Notes under the pieces: generated by a model
The model's database searches: none
What the model saw: only the letters and a program-made list of their open reading frames with translations
What the model was told of the DNA's origin: nothing
Made by a program: the position numbers and the translations under genes
DNA from: Thalassotalea atypica
GTDB taxonomy: Bacteria > Pseudomonadota > Gammaproteobacteria > Enterobacterales > Alteromonadaceae
Direction of reading: 5' to 3'
NCBI RefSeq assembly: GCF_030295975.1
Contig: NZ_AP027364.1
Location: forward strand, 744,001 to 808,000
DNA: 64,000 nucleotides
Shown: in pieces, positions 44,647 to 47,565 of the stretch
Numbering within the stretch: the first letter of the stretch is position 1
Layout of the letters: every line of letters begins with the position of its first letter

Positions 44647-45213
44647 TCAGTGGTTGATGAAATGTTGGATGTCGTTATTGCTAAGTATTTCCGCAATGAC
44701 CTTACCGAGTTGTTGATTAAAATCTCGTTCGAGCACGGCAACATCAGCAAACAATGGTCCATTGCTAGAGCCTTTAGATTTAAAGTGGTTGGTTAACGTC
44801 TTTTCAGCTTTGTTAATTTCTATGCGTAGACGAATCTCACTATTCGCTTGATACTTAACGGTTTCTTGTTGGACACTGACTAATGCAGCATCAATGTAAA
44901 CATTCATTGTGATATTCGCAAAATCATTGACAGCAAGGCCTTGGTTTTTCCATTCAGTTGTTAATGATTGATTGAGTATCGATGCCAAGTCATTAGCGGG
45001 AGAGTATAATTTGGCGGCTTGATCTTTCTTAAGCACTTGGATCACGTGATGTTGTCGACGTAGATCGGTGATACTTAGTTGCACGGATTGATTATGATAT
45101 AGGCTTTGTATCGGCGCATAAACTTGTGGTGCTATGATGATACTCGAAGGAGTAGAGCCGCACGCGATAAGTACAGCGCTAAGAAATAACGGAGCTATAG
45201 ATTTCATATTCAT
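44647..45213 (-). CDS. yajG: YajG family lipoprotein
   Basis: A 188-residue lipoprotein (lipobox LIAC, Cys at about 18) of the YajG family: APQVYAPIQSLYHNQSVQL, SITDLRRQHHVIQVL and LASILNQSLTTEWKNQGLAV. The function is unknown; the gene is next to ampG in E. coli as well. Its start overlaps the rlmG stop by 4 bases, so it is translationally coupled. Confidence 0.85.
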   Translation of the reverse strand: MNMKSIAPLFLSAVLIACGSTPSSIIIAPQVYAPIQSLYHNQSVQLSITDLRRQHHVIQVLKKDQAAKLYSPANDLASILNQSLTTEWKNQGLAVNDFANITMNVYIDAALVSVQQETVKYQANSEIRLRIEINKAEKTLTNHFKSKGSSNGPLFADVAVLERDFNQQLGKVIAEILSNNDIQHFINH

Positions 45214-46385
45214 TTTTTGATTGCCGATAAAATTACAAATTTGTCATCGCTGGCGATAACGGTACTGTTGCCAAAAATGCGTTTAAGTTTAACGTGATAA
45301 CCCAACTGTCGATTACCAACTATTCTTAATTCGCCGCCTTTTTTAAGTACTTTAAAGCTTTCGTTAAACATTTGCCAAGCGATATGATCTGTTGTTGCAT
45401 GTTGTTGATGAAAGGGCGGATTACAGACAATAACGTCAGCACTGTTAGGCGCTGCTTCAGTCAAACAGTCACCGACAATAAAGTTTGCGGCGTCAATTTT
45501 AGTGGGTAAATTTTGAGTCACATTAAGGCGAGCTGATTCTACCGCCATGTATGATTCATCTCTAAAAGACACTTGCACGTCTTCATTATTCGCTAGTAGG
45601 GTTAAACCGAGCACACCATTGCCGCAACCAAGATCAATGGCATGCTGTTCGCTTTTCAGCTTAGGCAAATGCTTAAGCATTAAGCGAGCACCAATGTCTA
45701 GTTTTTCACGCGCAAACACGTTAGCTAGATTAGCAATGCTAAAATTTGTTTTTTCAAGTATCCAAGTGGCGCATAAGTTATTTTTATTTATAGATTGGTT
45801 CGTTATTTTTCGATCTAATGCGGAAAAAACCAGACGTGATTTTTTAACGGCCAGTGATGTTTTAGTTGTACCGAGTAACTTTTCAAACTCTTTTAATGTT
45901 GAGCTATGAATTTCTTTAGCTTTGGCGCCAGCGACAAAGGAGGGTTTGTTTAATTGCGTATCAGCTGATGCTTCAATATATTGTTGATTAATGCGATAGA
46001 GTTGCTCAATCATCAAGGATTTGCTTTTGGGGATGCGATACAGAATTAAATCGATATCGGAAGGCAAAGGATCTAAGGATGAAATTATTTTGATTTGATC
46101 AGCTTCTAGATTATTTTGCTCGATATTGTGTCTAATGCCCTGCTCGCTCAGGTATGAATCGGTGGCAATTGTGACCTGATGCTGAGTTAAGTTGCAGCTT
46201 AATGCGCCAAAACTATCGTTAAAAACTACAATGTGTAAAGGCGATGATTGCTCATTATTTTCTTGAACATGATTAATCAGGTATTCATCGGTAGCATCCC
46301 ACGCTTGTAAACTTCGATTGACTTGTCCGAGAGGGAAACGGTCAAGAAAAAGGTTTTTATCATTAATAATAAACGGGCTGAGCAT
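45210..46385 (-). CDS. rlmG: 23S rRNA (guanine-1835-N2)-methyltransferase RlmG
   Basis: A 391-residue two-domain methyltransferase. The N-terminal half resembles a degenerate methyltransferase with NRSLQAWDATDEYLI and VVFNDSFGALSCNL. The C-terminal SAM domain has AIDLGCGNGVLGLTLL (motif I) and the amino-methyltransferase motif NPPFHQQHATTDHIAWQMF. It matches RlmG (YgjO) in both halves rather than RsmC, and methylates G1835 of 23S rRNA. It is divergent from the AlkB-like gene. Confidence 0.92.
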   Translation of the reverse strand: MLSPFIINDKNLFLDRFPLGQVNRSLQAWDATDEYLINHVQENNEQSSPLHIVVFNDSFGALSCNLTQHQVTIATDSYLSEQGIRHNIEQNNLEADQIKIISSLDPLPSDIDLILYRIPKSKSLMIEQLYRINQQYIEASADTQLNKPSFVAGAKAKEIHSSTLKEFEKLLGTTKTSLAVKKSRLVFSALDRKITNQSINKNNLCATWILEKTNFSIANLANVFAREKLDIGARLMLKHLPKLKSEQHAIDLGCGNGVLGLTLLANNEDVQVSFRDESYMAVESARLNVTQNLPTKIDAANFIVGDCLTEAAPNSADVIVCNPPFHQQHATTDHIAWQMFNESFKVLKKGGELRIVGNRQLGYHVKLKRIFGNSTVIASDDKFVILSAIKK

Positions 46386-46531
46386 AAAATTATTGACCTA
46401 ACATGGACAGGTGATACAAAAGGCCGATTGGACCTAGTTCATTGATGGTCGATATTGTGTCAAAATTCACAAATTACCGCTAGCCTATTATTTCGCTTTA
46501 TGCCGGCTAGTAAATTCAATGGAAGCTTATT

Positions 46532-47110
46532 ATTAATATTTCAGCGCCCGATGCCCAGCTATCATTTTTTCCGCAATTCATATCGCCTGCAAAAAGCCGT
46601 ATGTTGTTTGCACAATTACTTAGCGAGCTTCATTGGCGCCAAGATGAAATTATGATTTATGGCAAGCCTGTCACTCTTCCTCGCTTGCAAGCTTTGTACA
46701 GTGACAATAATCTTAACTACGCCTACTCTGGTTTAACAATGACATCACGGCCAATGAATGATTGTTTAATTACATTGAAACAAGTTATCGAAAAATCTAC
46801 TGGATATCACTTTAATGCTGTACTGGCTAATCTATATCGAGATGGTGAAGATTGTGTTGGGTGGCACAGCGATGATGAAGCTGAGCTAGGAGTAGATCCC
46901 GTGATTGCGTCATTATCACTTGGAGATACACGGAATTTTCAGCTAAAACATAAAACTAACGGTAAGAAACTCAACATAGATCTAACCTCTGGTAGCTTGT
47001 TAATCATGGCGGGTAAGACCCAACAATATTGGAGCCATTGTTTACCTCGAACAAAACGCGTAAAATCGTCGCGCATTAACTTAACCTTTCGAGAAATTAT
47101 TTCCCAATAA
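46532..47110 (+). CDS. AlkB family 2OG-Fe(II) dioxygenase, probable ATT start
   Basis: A predicted 192-residue AlkB homologue that removes alkyl groups from N1-methyladenine/N3-methylcytosine (ALKBH2/3-like type, inferred). Iron ligands are H112 and D114 in GWHSDDE and H169 in YWSHCLP, and R181 in RINLTFR binds 2-oxoglutarate. The homologous N-terminus (NISAPDAQLSFFPQFISPA) lies upstream of the first ATG in frame (46601). The only plausible start is ATT at 46532, 6 bases after GGAAG (46521-46525). In-frame TAA upstream rules out any ATG, GTG or TTG. If translation began at 46601, about 23 conserved-looking residues would be lost. Confidence 0.75.
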   Translation: MNISAPDAQLSFFPQFISPAKSRMLFAQLLSELHWRQDEIMIYGKPVTLPRLQALYSDNNLNYAYSGLTMTSRPMNDCLITLKQVIEKSTGYHFNAVLANLYRDGEDCVGWHSDDEAELGVDPVIASLSLGDTRNFQLKHKTNGKKLNIDLTSGSLLIMAGKTQQYWSHCLPRTKRVKSSRINLTFREIISQ

Positions 47111-47241: not shown

Positions 47242-47565
47242 ATGACCATTGAATCAATTATCGAAGAAAAACTACTGTCTGCCTTTTCGCCACTTCATCT
47301 AGATGTTGTCAACGAAAGTCATCAGCATAATGTTCCGCCAGGCAGTGAATCACACTTTAAAGTTATTATTGTCTCAAGCAATTTTGAAGGTGAACGGTTG
47401 ATTAAGCGTCACCGTGCCATAAATCAAATACTAGCAACGGAGCTTGCTGAGCATATCCATGCATTGGCGTTACATACCTACACAGAAAAAGAGTGGCAAG
47501 ATTACTACGCCGATAATACACCATTGTCTCCAAAATGCTTAGGTGGCTCAAAAACTACCGCATAA
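47242..47565 (+). CDS. bolA: BolA family protein
   Basis: A 107-residue BolA with the KH-like core: [21 protein letters not shown] (the HxxxxxGxSHFK pattern, His ligand for Fe-S with monothiol glutaredoxin), [20 protein letters not shown] and [14 protein letters not shown]. BolA works with glutaredoxin 4 in Fe-S trafficking and influences cell shape and stress response. A good ribosome binding site (AGGGAG) precedes it. It is a single gene. Confidence 0.92.

Follow-up and report, generated by a model that had tools for sequence, protein, structure and literature searches.

The AlkB homologue encoded in a 64,000-nucleotide stretch of the Thalassotalea atypica genome (NCBI RefSeq assembly GCF_030295975.1, contig NZ_AP027364.1, positions 744,001 to 808,000 of the forward strand; hereafter the window, to which all positions refer) very probably begins at an ATT codon at position 46532, as judged by comparison with its homologues. 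The codon aligned with this ATT is ATT (18 loci), ATC (3 loci) or ATA (1 locus) in 22 of the 22 homologues found in six related genera of marine-type bacteria, which are numbered here as g1 (the genus of the window, 7 loci), g14 (4), g22 (5), g58 (3), g63 (2) and g64 (1). In 19 loci of sister genera, a canonical start codon (i.e., ATG, GTG or TTG; NTG) is found at exactly the same place, and the codon periodicity that marks coding sequence begins there. A preliminary description of this DNA, made from its letters alone, had proposed the start at ATT 46532, and the three observations together bear it out. The position of this codon, its conservation as ATH (i.e., ATT, ATC or ATA; AUH in mRNA) and the coding boundary are observed directly in the sequences compared. 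We regard as most telling the closed frame upstream, the lack of canonical starts and the NTG codons that the sister genera appear to use at the same codon.

Conservation of the Start Codon among Relatives

Protein searches identified homologues in 45 of 60 relatives, in all seven g1 genomes and in 330 of the 395 family genomes, which are a sample of a larger group. Given that starts were read in 84 of these 330 genomes, which cover 40 of the 48 matching genera (g60, g62, g66, g68, g69, g70, g72 and g73 were left out), ATH starts may spread more widely than reported here. A second g64 genome gave no match. The codon after ATH is always AAT, AAC or AAA in the 22 loci. It should be noted that these loci were anchored by the codon pattern ATH, AAH, ATH/GTA and the 19 sister loci by NTG, AAN, Ile/Val, and the identity at codons 0 to 2 is thus partly built in. 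An invariant Pro at +13 and an invariant Phe at +15 also stand at a fixed distance from the ATH codon in 22 of 22 loci.

The canonical codon of the sister genera is ATG in g2, g28 and g30, while the 13 loci of g8 have TTG (9), ATG (3) or GTG (1). A weak start has been retained in the lineage, AUH in the six genera and mostly UUG in g8. The comparison of upstream regions that the preliminary description had called for found a normal ATG only in other genera and at the same codon, which confirms the position of the start. Other genera of the family have longer N-termini and start elsewhere, and their sequences were not forced into the alignment.

In a motif-free test, an in-frame ATG, GTG or TTG was missing up to and including window residue 15 in 16 of 149 loci, which thus have no canonical start ahead of the first conserved strand. 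Each of these 16 belonged to the ATH set, and none of the 127 loci outside this set lacked a canonical start. Where the frame of a locus extended beyond the fetched stretch, the locus was scored in this test as not lacking a start, and the loci include at least four pairs that stem from one gene. Among 20 further loci, 11 of which came from genera new to the comparison, only L193 had no such start, and this copy contains an internal stop. A g8 genome and a g74 genome carry interrupted alkB copies (G013:C1:3502589-3503150 and L193). Outside the family, a 53% identical homologue of Endozoicomonas (L031, about 2501) has ATC AAC ATT at the corresponding position and, three codons earlier, a TTG; no clear Shine-Dalgarno (SD) sequence is seen there by eye, and the start of this homologue is uncertain.

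Reading Frame and Onset of Coding Sequence

The alkB frame runs from stop to stop over 46514-47110 of the + strand, and its features are listed in Table 1. The positions given in the preliminary description for the upstream TAA (46511-46513), GGAAG (46521-46525), the ATT six bases on (46532-46534) and the first ATG (46601) were all correct. A TTG at 46604 directly follows this ATG in frame. The further statement that ATT 46532 is the only start-like codon with an SD sequence has to be qualified on two points: the SD of the window is modest, and other ATT codons occur in frame at 46514, 46529 and 46538. Because of these codons, position alone cannot pick out ATT 46532, but comparison does.

Table 1. 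Features of the alkB locus in the window.
Feature	Position	Strand	Evidence or remark
AlkB homologue (ALKBH2/3-like 2OG-Fe(II) oxygenase), 192 codons + stop	46532..47110	+	Pfam, sequence, fold
Proposed AUU start codon	46532..46534	+	ATT/ATC/ATA aligned in 22/22 homologues, six genera
In-frame stop TAA closing the alkB frame upstream	46511..46513	+	
SD-like GGAAG, 6 nt 5' of ATT	46521..46525	+	Modest here, stronger in six congeners
First in-frame ATG, internal	46601..46603	+	Codon 24, within predicted helix 19-32
Out-of-frame mini-open reading frame, 5 codons, TAA overlapping ATT	46519..46536	+	Judged incidental
Divergent RlmG/RsmC-like rRNA guanine-N2 methyltransferase	45210..46385	-	Conserved neighbour
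bolA	47242..47565	+	Conserved downstream neighbour

Among the 22 sequences, the mean pairwise difference at codon positions 1/2/3 was 0.68/0.69/0.67 for the 15 codons upstream of the ATH codon, 0/0/0.32 at the ATH codon itself and 0.46/0.32/0.61 for the 22 codons downstream. The coding pattern begins at the ATH codon, since codon periodicity is absent upstream of it and clear downstream. A shallow minimum of difference was found at codon -3, as expected of an SD sequence there. A syntenic scan meant to show that alkB alone has conserved coding sequence before its first canonical start was set aside after it matched 31 of the 79 window frames; it cannot isolate alkB because many of these, among them shadow frames and conserved leaders, match a few residues before the first canonical codon. 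Two of its matches were plainly leaders, which we take to precede nqrA and nqrF.

The mean best pairing energy with the anti-SD sequence was -5.4 kcal/mol for the 22 ATH loci, -2.4 kcal/mol for the 9 ATG sisters and -6.6 kcal/mol for the 10 TTG/GTG sisters, for which the shuffle means were -2.1, -1.3 and -1.7 kcal/mol, respectively, and 13 of the 22 ATH loci reached -6.0 kcal/mol or stronger. The stronger mean SD at ATH starts fits the compensation reported for weak start codons, which tend to pair with stronger SD sequences (PMC5622118).

Encoded Protein

The product of the frame matches the Pfam family 2OG-FeII_Oxy_2 (PF13532; 2OG, 2-oxoglutarate) with an E-value of 1.9e-39. This match starts at profile position 2 when the frame is read from 46514 and at position 17 when it is read from ATG 46601. 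Human ALKBH3 and ALKBH2 are close by sequence (best E-value, 3.3e-34), and the similarity to ALKBH3 starts at frame residue 14. Domain similarity sets in well ahead of the first ATG, in agreement with the preliminary description. The AlphaFold2 model of the AlkB homologue (pLDDT, 94.3) has the AlkB fold, with Foldseek matches to ALKBH3/ALKBH2 chains at TM scores of 0.84-0.95, and its N-terminus is modelled with strands at residues 2-3 and 9-13 and a helix at residues 19-32. The HxD...H triad and the RxNLTFR motif are present, and H112, D114, H169, R181 and R187, which are presumably the iron and 2-oxoglutarate residues, are invariant in 28 aligned rows. Assignment to the E. coli-type AlkB equivalog was rejected, as the NCBIfam scores of 25.2 of 231.05 bits for TIGR00568 and 22.1 of 267 bits for NF011930 are below the cut-offs. 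The gene encodes an intact AlkB-type (ALKBH2/3-like) oxygenase, which is probably a nucleic-acid demethylase. The likeness to the human proteins, which are eukaryotic, is one of fold and sequence and does not concern starts.

Evidence against the ATH Start and Alternative Explanations

Several observations weigh against a start at the ATH codon or against its importance. When read as Ile, this codon gives an all-Ile column, as does one other of the eight majority-Ile columns, and 58 of the 192 columns of the alignment are invariant, so that invariance of the ATH codon alone is weak evidence. On the gene tree, ATH versus NTG needs three changes, so that AUH is not indispensable. Nine of the 22 ATH loci (i.e., all five of g22, L002, L140, L142 and the window's own locus, L001) show weak SD pairing, and only seven of the 22 are individually at 5% of shuffles or less. 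The best anti-SD energy of the window itself is -3.3 kcal/mol, a value reached by 14% of mononucleotide shuffles. Finally, 6 of the 22 ATH loci carry an in-frame canonical codon further upstream. In L111 and L112 it is an ATG that precedes the ATT by two codons, and in the others a TTG or GTG at a distance of 5 to 24 codons. In these two of the four g14 genomes the upstream ATG directly abuts the SD sequence TAAGGA; in a third g14 genome (L113) this SD is present but the ATG is not. The layout of L111 and L112 matches that of infC of g14 (L151).

Translation from the internal ATG 46601, the first canonical in-frame start of the window, would leave the conserved codons upstream of it untranslated, and we consider it very improbable. 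Codon-periodic conservation is already evident from the ATH codon onward, anti-SD pairing was not found upstream of ATG 46601, and a start there would delete two strands and truncate helix 1 of the predicted structure. Nor is the position of this ATG conserved, as the next in-frame canonical codon downstream is at +28 in L003, +67 in L006 and L008, and +41 in L128, L141 and L142. Scarcely credible is a sequencing error or frameshift that hides a normal upstream ATG, such as ATG 46500 in another frame. The preliminary description had named such an error as a possible refutation, and an out-of-frame ATG does lie at -32 with its frame running past the start. The lack of a canonical start recurs, however, in independent genomes of six genera, which excludes sequencing error; moreover, 11 of the 22 loci have no out-of-frame open reading frame (ORF) that opens with ATG or GTG within 60 bases and passes the codon, and the upstream sequence is without codon periodicity.

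Translational coupling, in which the TAA of a mini-ORF overlapping the start (AT-TAA) supplies terminating ribosomes that reinitiate at AUU, would fit the layout of part of the loci. In the window, ATG 46519 opens a 5-codon ORF that stops at TAA 46534-46536. This layout is repeated in L115 at -13, and an ATG- or GTG-opened ORF leads to the same TAA in L002, L111, L112, L113, L129, L130 and L131, which brings the total to 9 of 22. Coupling is nonetheless unlikely, because the ATC and ATA starts (L003, L006, L008 and L114) cannot make an overlapping TAA and 13 of the 22 loci are without such an ORF within 60 bases. A considerably more serious possibility, albeit one that we hold to be the less probable outcome, is that the AUU start is real but non-regulatory. 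In that case a poor start would be tolerated where little protein is needed and would be partly compensated by the SD sequence, without meaningful control by initiation factor 3 (IF3). The tendency of weak starts toward stronger SD sequences (PMC5622118) and the TTG codons in 9 of the 13 loci of the sister genus g8 are both in keeping with such tolerance.

Proposed Mechanism and Implications

We propose that translation of alkB starts at AUU 46532, where fMet-tRNA would be mispaired at the third base and initiation would be guided by the SD sequence about 4-8 nt upstream. As IF3 discriminates against AUU, AUC and AUA, AlkB would be scarce and sensitive to the ratio of IF3 to 30S subunits, like the products of infC and pcnB. 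Near-cognate initiation at AUU 46532 with a low yield set by IF3 discrimination, taken as a whole and including IF3 control, is in our judgment moderately probable. By analogy with infC, pcnB and sigR, the limit on alkB translation by an initiation factor raised in the preliminary description is plausible; initiation with fMet, the low yield, IF3 control and the biological reason for it are inferred. The persistence of the weak start over evolutionary time suggests that the enzyme is held at a low level by design. Excess demethylase may be costly, or more enzyme may be wanted when the fidelity of initiation drops. More tentatively, infC, pcnB and alkB could form a small conserved group of AUH genes sensed through IF3, in which a fall of IF3 relative to ribosomes would raise translation of the demethylase; we consider this possible but doubtful. 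If true, such a group would link the repair of nucleic acids to the condition of the initiation machinery.

An AUH start retained in a repair gene across six genera offers a natural test of whether start-codon fidelity sets repair capacity. In addition, gene finders restricted to ATG, GTG and TTG would truncate or misplace the AlkB homologue in these genomes.

Genomic Context and History of the Locus

All 22 ATH loci have a divergent RlmG/RsmC-like methyltransferase gene upstream of alkB, and 20 have bolA on its downstream side; in the other two loci (L139 and L142) the fetched stretches reach only some 820 and 730 bases past the start. Among the other relatives shown, the methyltransferase-alkB-bolA arrangement is frequent, though not universal. 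Given these conserved neighbours, alkB occupies an orthologous locus and is not a recent import. RsmC was rejected as the identity of the divergent neighbour, for which RlmG scores best in NCBIfam, itself below the cut-off. The ATH label occurs in two parts of the gene tree, one comprising g1, g14 and g64 with g2 beside them and the other g22, g63 and g58. As far as the tree indicates, the weak start would be either old, with returns to NTG, or have arisen more than once. The alkB of the window groups with those of g14 and g64, apart from the other six g1 sequences (98/87). A scan for promoters and terminators gave 8 promoter-like sites versus 3.1 expected, none of them placed clearly before alkB, and an Rfam search gave no match.

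Comparison with Known Near-Cognate Starts

To our knowledge, natural AUU, AUC or AUA starts are known for very few bacterial genes. Binns and Masters are said to have found in 2002 that E. coli pcnB is limited by its AUU start. E. coli infC is described as a gene with an AUU start, and according to one paper no E. coli genes other than infC and pcnB start at AUU. AUU starts were proposed earlier for lepA in two species (PMC1780047). No report of a near-cognate start of a bacterial AlkB was found among the matches listed in the open-licence PMC literature. The terms "alkB" and "AUU initiation codon" both occur in two RNA-modification reviews (PMC5756263 and PMC6409601), as do "alkB" and "noncanonical start codon" in a cancer review (PMC10435748). 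An AUU-type start in AlkB would add an unexpected gene to a small known kind.

Both E. coli precedents have counterparts in the window's own genome. In its infC, ATT AAA stands behind TTGGAGGAACAGACT. The IF3 of this genome closely matches chain 8jsg_A, which we take to be E. coli IF3, over residues 2-179 with an E-value of 4.2e-81. Its pcnB (L169, G000:C1:670549-671844, minus strand) lacks a canonical codon close to where the N-terminus is expected and reads ATT ATT AAA CGC after GAGG, as if the AUU start of E. coli, with which we take it to agree, had been kept. In g1, 6 of 7 genomes have no canonical codon between the SD sequence and the ATT of infC, and L158 has a TTG two codons before it. 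The infC genes of g14, g64, g63, g8 and g58 (L151, L152, L155, L166, L167 and L168) have an ATG near the SD sequence, two codons ahead of the conserved ATT AAA. This may reflect a change in the start control of infC.

The alkB start resembles that of infC, including the infC of the window's genome, in that ATT is followed by an A-rich codon (ATT AAA in infC) behind an SD sequence, which is modest at the alkB of the window. It differs in that infC is autoregulated by its own product, whereas AlkB is not an initiation factor. The pcnB gene, which encodes poly(A) polymerase I, is similar as an AUU-start gene that does not encode a factor, but gene and function are different. In Staphylococcus, cvfC1 (AUU), ccpN (AUA) and citZ (AUA) also have AUU or AUA starts, two of which are conserved beyond S. 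aureus, and reporter output from AUU/AUA starts was about 10% of that from AUG in poor medium (PMC13009471). These Gram-positive cases (PMC13009471) differ from alkB in having extended SD sequences, unrelated genes and starts mapped by Ribo-RET, while the alkB start is predicted from sequence. With regard to IF3, reading of AUU by the CAU anticodon in vitro dropped with rising IF3 (PMC10158994), and IF3 represses the natural non-canonical start of Streptomyces sigR, for which relief of repression under oxidative stress could not be shown by the authors (PMC5472188). As a stress-response gene with a conserved non-canonical start, sigR is the closest model for IF3 control of alkB; it is unlike alkB in that its start is GTC rather than ATH, its ribosome-binding site is very extensive, its product is a sigma factor, and initiation was tested there (PMC5472188).
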